Shown here: piece after piece, positions 4,771 through 16,546 of the stretch
Position numbering within the stretch: the first letter of the stretch is position 1
Layout of the letters: the number at the start of each line of letters is the position of its first letter
Assembly (NCBI GenBank): GCA_040219085.1
Contig: JAVJTC010000020.1
Coordinates: 1-64,000 of the forward strand
Length of the DNA stretch: 64,000 bases
Direction: 5' to 3'
Source: Acidimicrobiales bacterium
GTDB taxonomy: Bacteria > Actinomycetota > Acidimicrobiia > Acidimicrobiales > JAVJTC01
Notes under the pieces: model-generated
Databases searched by the model: none
What the model was told of the DNA's origin: nothing
The model's input: only the letters and a program-made list of their open reading frames with translations
Program-made: the position numbers and the translations under genes

Positions 4771-5663
4771 TGTCGCCGGGTGAGGACGGCGACGGCGTCT
4801 TCGACCCCGGAGCGGTCCGTGACCTGCTCGGTTGGGCGGCACAGGATCCGCGCCCGATTCCGTGGCGTGGTCACCGTGACGCGTGGGGCGTTCTGGTCTC
4901 GGAGGTGATGCTGCAACAGACCGACGTCGGCCGGGTCGTCGACCGCTGGCCGGTGTTCATGGAGCGCTACCCGACGCCCGCTGCCATGGCCGCAGCGCCG
5001 GTATCGGCGGTGATCGCTCACTGGCAGGGGCTCGGCTACAACCGGCGCGCCGTCGCACTGCACCGGTCTGCCGTGCGGATCGCCGAGCGTCACGGTGGCG
5101 AGGTGCCCGACACCGTCGAGGCTCTGGAGCAACTTCCCGGAGTGGGCGCCTACACGGCGCGTGCGGTGGCCGCGTTCGCGTTCGGTCGCGACGTCGGTGC
5201 GCTCGACACGAACGTCGGTCGGATCCTCGCCCGCCGTGCCGGTCGGCCGCTGGGCCGCGTCGATGCGCAGGCTCTGGCCGATGCCGCCGTGCCGGCCGGA
5301 CGTGCGGGGGAGTGGAACCAGGCGATGTTCGACCTCGGCGCGGCGGTCTGTACCAAGCGGAGTCCGTCGTGTGGCGGGTGCCCCGTGCGTCGGGGGTGTG
5401 CGTGGCACGGCGAGGGTGGGGACCCGGCGGTGGGGTCCGCGGCGGTCTCGCGTCCCCAGTCGCGTTTCGTCGGTTCCGACAGGCAGGGACGGGCCCACCT
5501 CGTCAGGGTCCTCAGTGACGGTGGTGCCGTGGAGGAAGCGACCGTCGCCGCGGTCATGGGCTGGCCCGACGATGCGGACCGTGCGGCAAGGGTGCTCGCC
5601 GGCCTGGTTGCCGACGGGCTCGTCGACTGCGAGGGAGGGGTCGTCAGCCTCGCGCGCCGATGA
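4770..5663 (+). CDS. mutY: A/G-specific adenine DNA glycosylase
   Basis: This is MutY, which removes adenine mispaired with 8-oxoguanine in base-excision repair. Counting from the in-frame GTG at 4767, the helix-hairpin-helix motif is LPGVGAYTARAVAAFAF (about 123-139), the catalytic Glu lies in SEVMLQQT (E46) and the catalytic Asp in LDTNV (D147). The iron-sulfur loop C195-x6-C202-x2-C205-x5-C211 is complete. The protein has 297 residues. It lacks an obvious full MutT-like C-terminal domain, although about 60 residues after the cluster could be a shortened version. The start overlaps the stop of the upstream gene, so translation is probably coupled. Confidence 0.95.
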   Translation: MSPGEDGDGVFDPGAVRDLLGWAAQDPRPIPWRGHRDAWGVLVSEVMLQQTDVGRVVDRWPVFMERYPTPAAMAAAPVSAVIAHWQGLGYNRRAVALHRSAVRIAERHGGEVPDTVEALEQLPGVGAYTARAVAAFAFGRDVGALDTNVGRILARRAGRPLGRVDAQALADAAVPAGRAGEWNQAMFDLGAAVCTKRSPSCGGCPVRRGCAWHGEGGDPAVGSAAVSRPQSRFVGSDRQGRAHLVRVLSDGGAVEEATVAAVMGWPDDADRAARVLAGLVADGLVDCEGGVVSLARR

Positions 5664-5755
5664 TCCGCGCTGCGGTGCCGCCAGGCAGAGCGTGTTTCCG
5701 CCCGCGATCGCACGGTTGGCTACCCTTCGGGACCGCTGTCGACAAGGAGATCACC

Positions 5756-6259
5756 GTGAGCGAGAACGGCGAGACGATCGATCCCATGGAGTTCCGACGG
5801 GTGCTCGGCCACTACCCGACGGGCGTGACCGTCGTGACGGCCGACGGCCCGGACGGGCCAGCGGGGTTCGCCGTCGGTACGTTCGCCTCGGTCTCGCTGG
5901 ACCCTCCCCTCGTGTCGTTCTATCCGGACAAGTCCTCGGCGACCTGGCCGGCCATCGAGGCGGCGGGCTCTTTCTGCGTGAACGTTCTCGCTGACGACCA
6001 GGCGGGGGTGTGCGGGAAGTTCGCGTCGAAGGAGGACGACAAGTTCGCGGGAATCTCGTGGCATACCGAGGTGACCGGTGCACCGGTTCTCGACGATGTC
6101 CTGGCGTGGATCGACTGTGACATCGACGTCGTCCACGAGGCGGGCGACCACTGGCTCGTCGTCGGGCGGGTGCGGGCCCTCGACGTGGCTGACGACGCGC
6201 GGGGCCCGTTGCTGTTCTTCAAGGGCGGTTACGGCGCCTACGGCGTGCTGGACGGCTGA
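5756..6259 (+). CDS. Flavin reductase domain protein (FMN-binding split barrel)
   Basis: This is a 167-residue protein. I place the start at GTG 5756 because AAGGAGA lies 5 bases upstream; the frame is open to 5660 but the extra residues look non-coding. The sequence follows the flavin reductase-like family: FRRVLGHYPTGVTVVTA, SLDPPLVSFYPDKSSATWPAI, SFCVNVLADDQ and DHWLVVGRVRAL. These enzymes bind FMN or FAD and reduce it with NAD(P)H, often as the small partner of a two-component monooxygenase. No partner oxygenase is adjacent, so the electron acceptor is unknown. The next gene begins 3 bases downstream. Confidence 0.88.
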   Translation: MSENGETIDPMEFRRVLGHYPTGVTVVTADGPDGPAGFAVGTFASVSLDPPLVSFYPDKSSATWPAIEAAGSFCVNVLADDQAGVCGKFASKEDDKFAGISWHTEVTGAPVLDDVLAWIDCDIDVVHEAGDHWLVVGRVRALDVADDARGPLLFFKGGYGAYGVLDG

Positions 6260-6261
6260 GC

Positions 6262-6780
6262 GTGCCCATCTACGCGTTGGGTGACCTCGAACCGGTGATC
6301 CATCCCGAGGCGTACGTGCATCCCGAGGCGGTCGTGATCGGGAACGTCACGATCGGAGCGGAGTCCACGGTCTGGCCCGGGGCGGTCCTGCGGGGCGACG
6401 AGGGGTCGATCACCGTGGGCAGCGGCACCTCGATCCAGGACGGTGCGGTTCTGCACACCACTGGCGAGTTCTTCACCGTGGTGGGCGACAACTGCACGAT
6501 CGGGCATCTCGCGCATCTCGAGGGCTGCACGGTGGAGGATCTCGCTCTGATCGGTGTCGGCGCGGCCGTTCTGCACCGGGCCGTGATCGGCCGGGCGGCA
6601 CTGGTGGGAGCGGGCGCCGTGGTGACCAACGACATGGTCGTCCCGGCGGGGGCGATGGCGCTGGGCATCCCCGCGAAGATCCGCCCGGACGCGGCCGACG
6701 AGGAGACCCTCCGCTGGGGCGCAGGGGTCTACCGCCGACGTGGCCACCAGTACCGAGCGGACCTCCGTCGGCTCGACTGA
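6262..6780 (+). CDS. Gamma-carbonic-anhydrase-like hexapeptide-repeat protein
   Basis: This is a 172-residue left-handed beta-helix protein with repeated hexapeptides (VVIGNVTIGAESTVWPGAVL, shortened here). The residues expected for the gamma carbonic anhydrase/YrdA family are visible: Arg and Asp in LRGDEG, Gln in SIQDG, and zinc-type histidines in VLHTT and IGHLAHLEGC. Family members are trimers with a metal site between subunits; some hydrate CO2 and others have no measured activity. The GTG start at 6262 is 3 bases after the flavin reductase stop, which suggests an operon. It converges on the PPK2 fusion gene with a 9-base gap. Confidence 0.88.
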   Translation: MPIYALGDLEPVIHPEAYVHPEAVVIGNVTIGAESTVWPGAVLRGDEGSITVGSGTSIQDGAVLHTTGEFFTVVGDNCTIGHLAHLEGCTVEDLALIGVGAAVLHRAVIGRAALVGAGAVVTNDMVVPAGAMALGIPAKIRPDAADEETLRWGAGVYRRRGHQYRADLRRLD

Positions 6781-6789
6781 GGACGCAGC

Positions 6790-9315
6790 TCAGCTGCGGC
6801 GGCTGCGGGCGGCGACGAGCGCGCCGGTCAGTTCGTGGGCCGCGCTGGGTTGGTGGAACACGTAGCCCTGGATCTTGTCGCAGCCGATGTCCACGAGTGG
6901 AGCCAACTGGTCTGCCGACTCGACCCCGGAGGCGATGACCTCGATGTCGAGGGCGTGGGCGAAGCTGATGATCGCGTCGAGGAGCTGACGGCCCTCCTCG
7001 TCGCCGATGCGTGAGACCAGCGTCGAGCTGAGCTTGACGCTTCCGATCGCGAGGCGCTGGATGTCCGCGAGCGATGAGTGCGACGTGCCGAAGTCGTCCA
7101 CGGCGATCGGCACGCCGAGGTCTCGCAGGCCTGCGAGCGTCTTGGCGGAACGGTCGAGGTCGACCATGAGCGCCTTCTCGGCGATCTCGATGCAGATGGC
7201 GTCGGGCGGCAGCGAGTTGGCCTCGAGCTCTGCCGCGATGCGGTGGGCCAGCTCCGAGCTGCCGATCTGACGCCCGGAGATGTTGATGTGCACACGGGGC
7301 GCGTGACCGTTCATCTCGGCTCTCCAGTTGGCGGCCTGTTCGCACGCCTTGGCGAGCACGAGCATGTCGAGCTCGGAGATCATGCCGGCGGCGTCGGCGA
7401 CGTCGACGAACTCCGCAGCCGGAAGGAGTCCGCGCGTCGGATGGCGCCAGCGCACGAGTGCCTCGACGGCGCTGATGCGCAGCGTGTCGGTGTCGAAGAG
7501 TGCCTGGTGGTGGAGTTCGAACTCGCCGCGGGAGACCGCCCCGTCGAGTTGTTCGGCGGTGGCCGCACGATTGGCGGTGTTGGTCCGCATCGTGTCGTCG
7601 TACAGCTCGGCTCGGGCCCGGCCGTGCTCCTTGGCCTGGTACATGGCGGCGTCGGCGTCACGCATGAGCGAGTCGGGGTCCGTGGCCTCGTCGGAGACGG
7701 CCACACCGATGCTGACCGTCACCGCCAGGTCCGTGTCGGCGACCCGGAACGGTTTCTCGGTGAGGGCGTTGGCCACCCGTTCGGCGATGGACATGGCGTG
7801 GGTCTCGTCCTCGATGTCCTCGCACAGGACCACGAACTCGTCGCCGCCGAGGCGGGCGACGGTGTCCGAGGGGCGCAGGATGTCACTCAGGCGCGCCGCC
7901 ATGTCGACGAGCAGGCTGTCGCCGGCCGCGTGGCCGTAGCGGTCGTTGATGACCTTGAACCGGTCGAGGTCCATGAACAGGACTGCGACGGGGTGCCGTG
8001 ACCGTGACGAATGCGCGAGCGCGAGTTGGAGCCGATCCAACAGCAGTGACCGGTTGGGCAGATTCGTCAGGGCGTCATGGGTTGCGAGGTGTGCGAGCCG
8101 TGCCTGGCTGGTGGGGCTTCCGTCGACGACCGAGGCGGCCAGTTCGGCGACGCGCACGGCCTCGAAGGCGCCTTCGGTTGCAGGGGTGGTGGGCTCCGGC
8201 GGTGTCCAGCGCGATCGCACCGGGGCAAGACCGGTCTCATCGCCGGCTATCGCAGCGGCTGCCACTTCGCGAGGTCCGGCGGGGATGGCGGGGGCATCGG
8301 GCAACTCGATGACGATCTCGTCGGTCGGGTCCGTGTCGGCGCGACGGGAGGTCCCAGGGCCGCCGGTCGCCTTCTCGGAGTACCCGCCGCTGTCGTGGCC
8401 GGTGGAAGCGTCGGGGTGGTCGCCGTGGCCGATGGGTGAGTCGGGTCCTTCGCCGGGGTCGCCGTGGCCGGCGGGTGCGTCGTGGGCCGCCAGGGCGTGA
8501 GCCTGCTCGGCGGCCTCGCGGAGGTCTGCATCGAGTTCGTCGGAGGGCTCGGGCAGGCGTAGATCGAGCTCGCGTAGTGCTTCGACGACGACGCGCATGG
8601 CGATCAGGTCACGGAGCCAGGGTCTGTCTGAGGGGACGATCCACCACGGGGCGGCTTCGGTGCTGGTCTCGGTCAGCATGTCCTCGTACGCCCGGCTGCG
8701 CGCCTCCCAGCGGCGCCTGTCGGCGAGGTCGCCGAGGGTGAACTTCCAGCGTTCCTCCGGGTCGTCCATCCGGTCCTGGAGTCGACGTCGCTGCTCTTCG
8801 GACGACAGGTGCAGGAAGAGCTTGACGACCGTCGTCCCCTCGTCGGTGAGGAGGCCTTCGAACTGGCGGATGTGCTGGTACCGGCGTCGCCAGGTGGACT
8901 CCGGTACGAGGCCGTCCACGCGGGCGCGGATGATGTCCTCGTAGTGGCTGCGGTTGAACAGTCCCAGCTCGCCGACGCGGGGGACCTCGGCGTGGATCCG
9001 CCACAGGTAGTCACGTTCGGACTCGGATTCGCTGGGAGGTCCGAAGGTGGCCAGGCGCACACCCTGGGGGTTGACGGCCGAGTAGAGCAGGCGGACCAGC
9101 GCGTCCTTGCCGGCCGTGTCGGGTCCCTGGAGGATCACCAGCAGTCGGTGGCGCCTCTGCGCGAAGAGGCGGATCTGCAGTGAGCCGAGCTCGTCGGTGA
9201 GTCGTTCGAGGCGCGCACGCGCGTCGCGCCGGGCGACGTCGGTGTCGCCGCGGGGGTCGATTTCGTCGAGGTCGACCTTCGCCCGCTCCTCGACGCGATG
9301 GCGGGAGGTGTCCAC
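6790..9315 (-). CDS. PPK2 polyphosphate kinase-like domain fused to GGDEF and EAL domains
   Basis: This 841-residue protein has three domains. Residues about 35-250 are a PPK2-type polyphosphate:nucleotide phosphotransferase with Walker [10 protein letters not shown] (64-72), lid motif FNRSHYED (120-127) and WKFTLGDL. That set fits the PPK2 branch with FNRSHYE. A His/Asp/Gly-rich linker of about 150 residues follows. The GGDEF domain has an intact GGDEF (490-494) and a product-inhibition I-site RPSD (481-484) exactly five residues upstream. The EAL domain has EAL (618-620), the Asn of INISG, DDFGTS and QGY. The Glu of the usual AEGVE is Ser796, and KID reads KLS. No signal peptide or membrane segment is visible. 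GTG 9315 was chosen because residues encoded upstream look non-coding. See findings. Confidence 0.92.
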
Positions 9316-9607: not shown

Positions 9608-10867
9608 ATGTCGACGACCCAGGACCTCGGCCTCGACCTCAGCCGCTATGCACTGGGCTGGTCCGACGTCGAGGACTACGTTTTCAAGCCGAAGAAGGGC
9701 ATCGACGAGGCGATCGTCAAGGAGATGTCGTGGATGAAGGGGGAGCCCGACTGGATGCGGGACTTCCGTCTCAAGTCGCTCCAGCGCTTCGAGCAGCGGC
9801 CCATGCCCCACTGGGGCGGGGACATGTCCGGGATCGACTTCGATGACATCTTCTACTACATCAAGCCGACCAACTCGCTCTCCGACGACTGGGACAACGT
9901 CCCCGAGTCCATCAAGAACACCTACGAGAAGCTCGGCATCCCCGAGGCGGAGCGCAAGTACCTCGCCGGTGTCACGGCCCAGTACGAGTCCGAGGTCGTC
10001 TACCACAAGAACCGTGAGGACCTCGAGGCTCTCGGTGTCATCTTCTGCGACATGGACACCGCCCTGCGCGAGTACCCCGAGATCGTCAAGGCCTACTTCG
10101 GGCGGATCATCCCGCCCAACGACAACAAGTTCTCCGCCCTCAACTCGGCGGTCTGGTCCGGCGGCAGCTTCATCTACGTCCCACCCGGCGTCGAGGTCGA
10201 CATGCCCCTCCAGGCCTACTTCCGCATCAACGCGGAGAACATGGGTCAGTTCGAGCGGACGCTGATCATCGCCGACGAGGGCTCCAAGGTCCACTACATC
10301 GAGGGCTGCTCGGCGCCGACCTACTCGACCGACTCGCTGCACTCGGCTGTGGTCGAGATCGTCGTGAAGCCCTCCGCGCGGGTCACCTACACGACCATCC
10401 AGAACTGGTCCTCGAACGTCTACAACCTGGTCACCAAGCGTGCGCGGGTCGAAGCCGAGGGCCACATGGAGTGGATCGACGGCAACATCGGCTCCCGTCT
10501 CACGATGAAGTACCCCGCCGTGGTCATGGTCGGGCCCAAGGCATCAGGCGAGGTTCTCTCGGTCGCCTACGCGGGGGCCGGTCAGCATCAGGACGCCGGG
10601 GCCAAGATGACCCACGCAGCGCCCGAGACCACCTCCAAGATCGTCTCGAAGTCCATCTCCAAGGACGGCGGGCGTAGCTCGTACCGCGGGCTCGTGCGGG
10701 TCGAGGACGACGCGTACGGCTGCAAGAGCCACGTCCAGTGCGACGCTCTGATCCTCGACGAGCACTCCATCTCGGAGACCTACCCCTACATGGAGCTGGG
10801 TTCACGTGACGCGGTGGTCGGTCACGAGGCCACAGTCTCCAAGGTGGCCGACGAGCAGCTCTTCTAA
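9608..10867 (+). CDS. sufB: Fe-S cluster assembly scaffold SufB, interrupted by in-frame TAA
   Basis: This is the first 419 residues of SufB, part of the SufBCD scaffold complex that builds Fe-S clusters. The start is ATG 9608 ([12 protein letters not shown]). Recognisable segments include [64 protein letters not shown] and [15 protein letters not shown]. The frame stops at TAA 10865-10867, exactly where family members have Tyr in the sequence QLFYLM. The conserved C-terminal tail continues in the same frame to 11014. The product as read is about 48 residues short. Sequencing error, recent mutation or read-through cannot be separated from sequence alone. Confidence 0.9.
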
Positions 10868-14200: not shown

Positions 14201-14290
14201 CACGGGACGCTTCCCCGGAACCCTCCCTCTGGCGCGGATGCGGGTGTTATTCTCTGTCCCGAATTGCGGCGGCGAAAGGCGAGTGACGGG

Positions 14291-16546
14291 GTGCACGGGC
14301 CCGGTCCCACACACGTGGATGGCGAGGCCACTGGCGAGGTTGCCGGGTTGAACATCCTCCTCGTGGAGGACTCCGAGGGCGACGCGTCGCTGGTGACGGC
14401 TCACCTGGGTATCGCGGCACCGACCTACGATGTGCGTCGCGTCGAGACACTGGCCGCGGCGACGGAGCATCTGCAGTGGGCGCACTGCATCCTGTTGGAT
14501 CTCGGACTTCCCGACGCGCACGGTCTGGAAGGGGTGAAGGCCCTCCTCGAGATCCCGCATCAGGCCGCCGTCGTGGTTCTGACCGCTGATCACCGCGCCG
14601 AGCTCGCCGCCGAGGCCCTGGCCCTCGGGGCCACGGACTATCTCCGCAAGGGAACGGCCGATCATCACCGTCTGGCCACCGTCGTGGCACAGGCGGTGGA
14701 GAGGAACAAGCTGCACCGTCGCATCCTGGACAACGAGAGGTGGGCTGAGATGCGGGCGGCACGACACGCCGCGGTCGCCACTCTCGGAGCGCTGGCGGTG
14801 TCGGGAGGGCCGCTCGACGAACTACTCGACACGACGGTGCTTCGTGCTGTCGACGGATTCGAGTCCTCGGTTGCGACGATCCTGGTACCTGCCGACGGGA
14901 CGCTGCGGGTGCTGGCGGAGGCCGGGCTCGGCGACGGATGGTCCGACGACGGCTTCGCGGACCGATCGCTCGCGGCGGTGCTGGGCGGCGGTCGCGCCGT
15001 CTACGTGGCCCACCACGGTCAGGGTGCCGTTCCTGCGCCGGCCATCGTCGCAGACCGCGGGCCGGTCGCGACGATCGCGGCTCCGATTCACGGGGCCTCG
15101 GTTCCTCTCGGTCTGTTGACTCTCCACACCGCGTCGGAGGTCGAACGACAAGAGGAGGCGGTCGACTTCGTCCAGTCCATGGCCAACGTCCTCGCCCACG
15201 CGTTCGAACTCCAACAGGCGAGCGCCGAACTCGCCCACAGAGCGATCACCGACGACCTCACGGGCCTCGCCAACCGGTCGTTGTTCCGCGACCGGCTCGC
15301 CAACGCACTGGCGCAGCGGATCGGTTCGTCGTGCGCGGTGATCTTCGCCGACCTGGACGGGTTCAAGGACGTGAACGACGCTCTCGGCCACGGCGTGGGG
15401 GACAAGGTCCTGCGGTTGGTCGGACAGCGCCTCGCCGCCTCGTTGCGTGAAGGTGACACCGTCGCACGCCTCGGTGGTGACGAGTTCGCGATCTTGTGCC
15501 CGTCCGTGGCTGACGAGGTCGAGGCGGCGATGGTCGCCGAACGGACACTCGCGGTCCTGGAGAGCGCGCCGTTCGAGATCGAGGAAGGGCAGATCGATCT
15601 CTCGGCGAGCCTCGGGGTTGCGCTCGGGGGCCCTGAGCTCGGTCCGGAGGGACTGTTGCGTGACGCGGACGCGGCGATGTACCGGGCGAAGGCGGCCGGT
15701 GGCGGTCAGGTCAGTCTCTACGATGACACCATGCACGCCGCGGCCCGTGAGCGCTTCGAGCTGTCCAACGACCTGCGGCACGCGCTCATGCGCGATGAGC
15801 TGTCGGTCCTGTTCCAGCCGATCGTCGGTCTCGCCGACCGCCGCCTCGTCTGGGCCGAGGCCCTCGTGCGGTGGGACCATCCGACCCGTGGCCGTCTGGG
15901 CCCGGATCGGTTCCTCGACATCGGGGAGCGGGCCGGCCTTCTCGCCGCAATGGACACCTTCGTGTTGGGCACGGCGGTTGCGGAGCTCGAGAAGTGGACG
16001 GCGAGAGGAGCGCGGGCCGCTCCCTCGGCGGTGACGGTGAACGTCACCGCTCAGCAACTCCGCGACGGCGATCTGCCGCGACGTTGCGCCGAGGCGCTCG
16101 CCGCGACGGCGCTGCCCCCCGGCGCCATCTGGCTCGAGGTGGCCGAGAGGTCACTTGCGCGGGACCACGAGACGGCGACAGCGTCCCTCGAGGCTCTGTC
16201 GGATCTCGGTCTCGGCCTGGCGCTCGACGACTTCGGTACCGGCTACTCGTCTCTGAGTCACGTCGGGACCATGCCCTTCGCGGCGTTGAAGATCGACCGC
16301 TCCTTCGTGAGTGGATCCGGGCCGGGTCTCGCCAACCCGCGCATCGTCGCGGCCATCATCGAGGTGGCGCATTCGCTCGGCGAGGTCGCCATCGGCAAGG
16401 GGGTGGAGACGTCCGAGCAGTACGAGGCACTGCGCGAGCTCGGCTGTGACCTCGCGCAGGGGTTCCACATCAGCGAGCCGCTGCCGGCCTCTCAGATCGG
16501 GCCGTGGACGGCGCAGTGGCACTCGACGCAGGGAGTCATCGCCTGA
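14291..16546 (+). CDS. Response-regulator receiver protein with GAF, GGDEF and EAL domains
   Basis: This protein has about 751 residues from GTG 14291, which has a GGCGAAAGGCGAG ribosome site 7 bases upstream; a TTG at 14348 is an alternative. A receiver domain (residues 20-140) has phospho-acceptor Asp70 in LLDLGLPD and Lys in LRKG. A GAF-like domain occupies about 160-305. GGDEF (395-399) is intact with I-site REGD (386-389), so cyclase activity with product inhibition is likely. The EAL domain has EAL (523-525), NVTAQQ, DDFGTGYSSL, LKIDRSF and AQGF, but the Glu of AEGVE is Lys703 (GKGVET). No histidine kinase is adjacent. Confidence 0.92.
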   Translation: MHGPGPTHVDGEATGEVAGLNILLVEDSEGDASLVTAHLGIAAPTYDVRRVETLAAATEHLQWAHCILLDLGLPDAHGLEGVKALLEIPHQAAVVVLTADHRAELAAEALALGATDYLRKGTADHHRLATVVAQAVERNKLHRRILDNERWAEMRAARHAAVATLGALAVSGGPLDELLDTTVLRAVDGFESSVATILVPADGTLRVLAEAGLGDGWSDDGFADRSLAAVLGGGRAVYVAHHGQGAVPAPAIVADRGPVATIAAPIHGASVPLGLLTLHTASEVERQEEAVDFVQSMANVLAHAFELQQASAELAHRAITDDLTGLANRSLFRDRLANALAQRIGSSCAVIFADLDGFKDVNDALGHGVGDKVLRLVGQRLAASLREGDTVARLGGDEFAILCPSVADEVEAAMVAERTLAVLESAPFEIEEGQIDLSASLGVALGGPELGPEGLLRDADAAMYRAKAAGGGQVSLYDDTMHAAARERFELSNDLRHALMRDELSVLFQPIVGLADRRLVWAEALVRWDHPTRGRLGPDRFLDIGERAGLLAAMDTFVLGTAVAELEKWTARGARAAPSAVTVNVTAQQLRDGDLPRRCAEALAATALPPGAIWLEVAERSLARDHETATASLEALSDLGLGLALDDFGTGYSSLSHVGTMPFAALKIDRSFVSGSGPGLANPRIVAAIIEVAHSLGEVAIGKGVETSEQYEALRELGCDLAQGFHISEPLPASQIGPWTAQWHSTQGVIA

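Follow-up and report, generated by a model that had tools for sequence, protein, structure and literature searches.

Class III enzymes of the polyphosphate kinase 2 (PPK2) family phosphorylate both NMPs and NDPs; the Glu that follows their RSxY motif is the signature of the class and affects the use of AMP, ADP and GDP (PMC8776046, PMC11641546). The enzymes of Meiothermus ruber (5LC9/5O6K) and Deinococcus radiodurans (6AQE) match the protein described here over the full length of the domain and share with it all motifs, including the class III Glu. In the class III relatives that we inspected, no more than about 30 residues follow the domain, whereas about 570 follow it here, including a GGDEF and an EAL domain.

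In the literature we searched there is one experimental link between a PPK2 and c-di-GMP. The PPK2 of Erythrobacter flavus lowers c-di-GMP by competing for or consuming GTP (PMC12172448); the connection thus runs through GTP, but PPK2 and DGC-0450 are separate proteins and the effect of PPK2 is negative. In Acidithiobacillus a polyP-binding CHAD domain is fused to an adenylate cyclase and encoded adjacent to ppk, which shows that polyP-related modules can join second-messenger cyclases (PMC6416229). This CHAD-CYTH cyclase resembles the present fusion in uniting the two kinds of module in one polypeptide, but it concerns cAMP and a polyP-binding domain, while here a c-di-GMP enzyme is joined to a kinase. 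Finally, the degenerate EAL domains of FimX and LapD are known c-di-GMP receptors (PMC7288161). Like them, the fusion has an EAL fold that has lost metal-binding or catalytic residues; binding is known for those two proteins and may persist here. The GGDEF domain of FimX is also degenerate (PMC3527489), whereas that of the fusion is intact. Full-text literature searches returned no paper describing a PPK2-GGDEF-EAL architecture, and the papers searched describe no PPK2-type input for GGDEF proteins.

The fusion gene and its domains

The gene lies in the first 64,000 nucleotides of contig JAVJTC010000020.1 of an Acidimicrobiales bacterium, the stretch analysed as a whole and referred to below as the window. 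Its features are:

6790..9315, minus strand: PPK2-GGDEF-EAL fusion gene, GTG start at 9315, 841 aa (open frame)
8569..9231, minus strand: class III PPK2 domain, aa 29-249 (PF03976, TIGR03709, PDB matches 5LC9/5O6K)
9106..9120, minus strand: Walker A core D66-T-A-G69-K70 (sequence; conserved in 116 relatives)
8938..8952, minus strand: Walker B type R122-S-x-Y125, then Glu126, the class III signature (sequence; rule from PMC8776046, PMC11641546)
8110..8568, minus strand: linker of about 153 aa, low-complexity and A/P/G/D/E-rich with a short His cluster (composition; coding in the same frame except aa 346-375)
7615..8085, minus strand: GGDEF domain, aa 411-567 (Pfam, conservation)
7864..7875, minus strand: I-site R481-P-S-D484, five residues ahead of GGDEF (sequence)
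6847..7554, minus strand: degenerate EAL domain, aa 588-823, EAL motif kept at E618 (Pfam; nine conserved columns changed)
7027..7029, minus strand: Ser763 replacing the Asp of the K-I-D motif, Asp in 49 of 51 relatives (alignment)
6928..6930, minus strand: Ser796 replacing the Glu of A-E-G-V-E, Glu in 48 of 51 relatives (alignment)

The frame runs on the minus strand from 9315 to 6790 through 841 residues without an internal stop, and Pfam places the three domains in the order PPK2, GGDEF and EAL, each with E < 1e-48 (7e-65, 6e-49 and 1e-61, respectively). The GTG start is supported by the alignment with the solved PPK2 6AQE, in which the first residues of the two proteins coincide. We trained a three-phase codon model on the neighbouring genes and applied it in 30-codon steps; it gave the coding frame about 1.00 in every step from residue 1 to 841 except residues 346-375 of the linker, where the frame was ambiguous (0.35/0.65). 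There is therefore no hidden frameshift or intergenic stretch, about 30 uninformative linker codons aside. By all tests applied, the fusion is a real single gene, and the one continuous frame of the original prediction is confirmed by the absence of a stop, by Pfam and TIGR03709, and by the codon model.

The PPK2 half scored 219 bits with PF03976 (cut-off 22.3) and 309 with the NCBIfam PPK2 subfamily model TIGR03709 (cut-off 247), and its best PDB matches are the M. ruber class III structures 5LC9/5O6K. Walker A reads QGPDTAGKD, and the RSxY motif is R122SHY125 followed by E126. In an alignment with 116 relatives, 53 of 56 conserved columns are intact, the departures being I61, L88 and E188; the preserved positions include Q63, D66, G69, K70, R122, S123, Y125, E126, R178, R182, K191 and D196. 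Judged by these residues, the domain is a class III PPK2 that looks catalytically competent. It clusters loosely with class III PPK2s from the same bacterial class, on a branch of 1.23 against a median of 0.36, a length that could reflect relaxed constraint.

The GGDEF domain also looks catalytically competent: all 35 conserved columns are intact, those for metal and guanine included, and the RxxD of the I-site stands at the canonical spacing. Thus Walker A, the lid residues, RPSD and GGDEF, all expected beforehand, were found in place. The linker had been described as 150 residues rich in His and Asp. Its length is as stated (about 153), but its composition is mainly Ala, Pro, Gly, Asp and Glu (27 A, 19 P, 17 G, 16 D, 14 E), with 6 His clustered in the first half.

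The EAL domain had been treated as an ordinary one, a view that did not survive alignment: with S745, S763 and S796 it is very probably inactive. Ser745 occupies a position that is Gly in 51 of 51 relatives, and the acidic residues lost at 763 and 796 are the same two in an alignment with MorA. RocR Glu352 is a metal ligand (PMC7911125), and Ser796 is its equivalent according to the AEGVE motif and the MorA alignment. Most suf-locus orthologues and own-genome paralogues retain the equivalents of Asp763 and Glu796. The fusion keeps E618, N678, E710, D740, D741, K761 and Q816, and the pocket positions Q604, E618, R622 and N678 are intact. Because three invariant or near-invariant positions, two catalytic acids among them, are Ser, this EAL domain probably cannot hydrolyse c-di-GMP, the activity being predicted to be lost or very weak. 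By analogy with FimX and LapD, it may still bind the dinucleotide. Just past the downstream end of the suf operon the window encodes a second GGDEF-EAL protein, with the order REC-GAF-GGDEF-EAL (14264-16546, plus strand). In place of AEGVE it has GKGVE, a Glu-to-Lys change at the equivalent of position 796, and it too may be a weak or dead phosphodiesterase.

Distribution of the architecture and the suf locus

Searches with the PPK2 half covered 397 genomes of the order, 395 of the class and 396 of the phylum, overlapping sets that together reached roughly 1,000 genomes; further searches took the whole protein at class level and covered 80 GTDB loci and ten viral-contig loci. With the PPK2 half or the whole protein of the fusion as query, the searches were aimed at fusions of class III PPK2, and many PPK2 matches were judged by open-frame length alone. 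No second PPK2-GGDEF/EAL fusion was found in the order-, class- and phylum-level searches, the 80 GTDB loci or the ten viral-contig loci, whose ten PPK2s are all unfused. Apart from the window's own copies, none of about 175 other PPK2 frames (164 + 15 checked at sequence level) carried GGDEF or EAL. The tail past the PPK2 match is at most 29 residues in the inspected frames, except for the class I copy of the source genome (51) and locus L345. The latter, a PPK2 frame extended by 267 residues, was rejected as a second fusion: Pfam recognises no domain in the extension, which comes after a masked run of N. A plasmid search returned no record covering 80% of the query.

The inspected homologues of each half are without the other half. 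Homologues always encoded as separate genes had been named beforehand as grounds for rejecting the fusion; what they show is that the architecture is lineage-specific, and the fusion in this genome is not refuted. The source genome is the sole member of its family among the genomes compared, and the fusion is a singleton, lineage-specific architecture. The original remark that this was not known as a described protein class agrees with its absence from the other genomes and the papers searched. It is a new domain architecture built from well-known parts.

The source genome (3.8 Mb) also encodes a separate class III PPK2, 52% identical to that of the fusion, a class I-like PPK2 and PPK1. With 24 GGDEF matches and no match to the PilZ receptor, it has a c-di-GMP network whose receptors are not obvious. 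A GGDEF gene 7 kb from the class I PPK2, on contig 4, was set aside as a GAF-GGDEF-like gene amid unrelated genes. A REC-GGDDF response regulator is encoded no more than about 2 kb from the stand-alone class III PPK2 gene at about 15 loci (L067, L070, L093, L106, L134, L175/L228, L174/L227, L178, L182, L185, L346, L349, L350, L353, L358 and L359). The regulator has a degenerate GGDEF, GHVGGDDF, and in the two loci inspected it adjoins rpe, which lies beside the PPK2 and regulator genes or between them, inside a block with fmt and def. This conserved neighbourhood was considered as independent support for a PPK2/GGDEF association and rejected as shared synteny of the rpe/fmt/def block.

The fusion gene sits between a hexapeptide-repeat gene and the suf operon, divergent from sufB:

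5660..6259, plus strand: flavin reductase-like protein of the same conserved locus (Pfam PF01613; synteny)
6262..6780, plus strand: hexapeptide-repeat protein, gamma-carbonic-anhydrase-like, the conserved left neighbour, convergent and 9 bp from the stop of the fusion (Pfam Hexapep; synteny)
9608..10867, plus strand: sufB, the conserved right neighbour, divergent, with 292 bp between the two starts (Pfam SUFBD_core)

For 80 genomes of the order we surveyed the sequence upstream of sufB, and for three GGDEF-EAL matches their surroundings. The order flavin reductase, hexapeptide protein, sufB is widespread in the order, and the slot taken here by the fusion is often empty. In G005, G105 and G106 the slot between the hexapeptide gene and sufB holds a divergent GGDEF-EAL gene, and a GGDEF-EAL gene divergent from sufB is also present in G011, G094, G264 and G177. 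Six of these seven genes encode PAS domains and none encodes a PPK2, while the Pfam scan of the fusion returned no PAS. In five more genomes (G088, G152, G023, G044 and G121) a GGDEF gene without EAL stands divergent from sufB. GGDEF-without-EAL loci beside sufB are L294, L295, L311, L315 and L326. Surveyed by sufB similarity, 9 of 80 genomes have a GGDEF gene divergent from sufB, which suggests that the position often carries c-di-GMP genes.

The best-scoring GGDEF-EAL relatives of the fusion, from G094 (48% identical) and G011 (49%), are both at the suf locus. A quick maximum-likelihood tree unites the fusion with five suf-locus genes and two others in a clade (SH-aLRT 98) that contains no own-genome paralogue; branching inside this clade is unsupported, including the branch that joins exactly the fusion and the five suf-locus genes. 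The slot genes of G105 and G106 fall elsewhere in the first tree and were left out of the second. A joint MAFFT alignment of the fusion with PPK2-only and GGDEF-EAL-only rows, meant for structure prediction and separate from these trees, was discarded because it forced unrelated halves together. The suf-locus PAS-GGDEF-EAL proteins of G011, G094, G005, G264 and G177 thus share position, orientation and clade with the fusion and are 43-49% identical to its GGDEF-EAL part where measured. They differ in having N-terminal PAS arrays and mostly intact EAL catalytic residues, where the fusion has PPK2 and a degenerate EAL.

Given the same slot, the sequence clade, the PAS domains of the relatives and the absence of PPK2 from the orthologues, the simplest account is that the GGDEF-EAL part of the fusion is orthologous to these suf-locus genes and that PPK2 replaced the PAS array. 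The reverse direction, in which the relatives gained PAS, is less parsimonious.

Possible roles of the fused kinase

We propose that the protein is a chimeric signalling enzyme that arose by a swap of sensor modules and acts as a diguanylate cyclase following polyP/nucleotide status; we put the probability of this reading at about 0.45. In an ancestral PAS-GGDEF-EAL gene divergent from sufB, a catalytically intact class III PPK2 would have replaced the PAS input, and the EAL domain of the ancestral suf-locus protein would have lost catalytic acids. PPK2 would bind polyP and NMP or NDP and, by forming the oligomer that its family typically forms, would draw the chains, and with them the GGDEF domains, together across the flexible linker. 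The product, c-di-GMP made from GTP, would exert feedback at the I-site and may also be bound by the dead EAL. A cyclase that follows the ligand state of PPK2 is favoured because PPK2 stands at the input position and the cyclase is intact while the phosphodiesterase is not. More tentative is a direct polyP-to-c-di-GMP transducer, in which PPK2, having replaced the PAS array, would be the sensor, and perhaps a granule anchor, that gates the attached diguanylate cyclase.

Several observations count against the proposed cyclase. The fusion occurs in one genome only, its PPK2 branch is long and the genome has no PilZ match. A flexible linker of about 150 residues is an unusual route for a conformational signal to GGDEF. 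With a separate class III PPK2 and PPK1 present, bulk metabolism does not depend on the fused kinase.

The original prediction had left open whether the fusion would supply or sense GTP for c-di-GMP production; locus and phylogeny suggest that PPK2 took the place of a PAS sensor, which fits sensing better than supply. Supply is nevertheless the main rival, albeit an unlikely one: the class III PPK2 would make GTP from GMP or GDP and polyP beside the cyclase, allowing c-di-GMP to be made when GTP is scarce. Normally the GTP level of the cell lies far above the Km of diguanylate cyclases; only depleted cells would then gain from a local source. The flexible linker has no evident channel. On the other hand, class III PPK2s do use NMPs and NDPs (PMC8776046, PMC11641546), the signature residue is present in the fusion, and Campylobacter jejuni ppk2 mutants make less GTP (PMC8776046). 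The E. flavus work provides the predicted link between PPK2, GTP and c-di-GMP with a precedent, but one for separate proteins in which PPK2 lowers both GTP and c-di-GMP (PMC12172448).

Signalling in the reverse direction, with the dead EAL and the I-site sensing c-di-GMP and switching PPK2 on or off, would agree with the receptor role of degenerate EALs in FimX and LapD (PMC7288161) and with the retained pocket positions. However, all conserved GGDEF active-site residues are kept, which a pure receptor would not need, and PPK2 occupies the N-terminal place that input modules have in the orthologues; we consider this direction improbable. We think no better of the chances that the two enzymes are tethered by accident, or that PPK2 merely places the protein on polyP granules. 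Occurrence in a single genome, the long flexible linker and the long PPK2 branch would suit such an uncoupled fusion, but the PPK2 and GGDEF motifs are fully kept despite a stand-alone PPK2 paralogue, and both halves have diverged by about 50% from their nearest relatives without decay. An assembly or sequencing artefact joining two genes is very improbable indeed. The roughly 30 linker codons without a clear frame (346-375) would allow it, yet codon statistics otherwise support one frame, and the paralogous PPK2, at only 52% identity, could not recruit reads. What is more, PPK2 is bounded by sufB on one side and a locus-typical GGDEF-EAL on the other, so that an artefact would take two independent misjoins, one of which had to be in frame; this two-sided fit argues strongly against misassembly.

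Stress, starvation and surface life all elicit responses in polyP as well as c-di-GMP, and the known connection between them is mostly circumstantial, the existing evidence being GTP competition between separate proteins. The interest of the fusion depends on its activity. A polyP/nucleotide kinase and a diguanylate cyclase in one polypeptide make a link between polyP and c-di-GMP testable in one tube, and the locus comparison yields a clear candidate for a sensor domain whose place has been taken by an enzyme.
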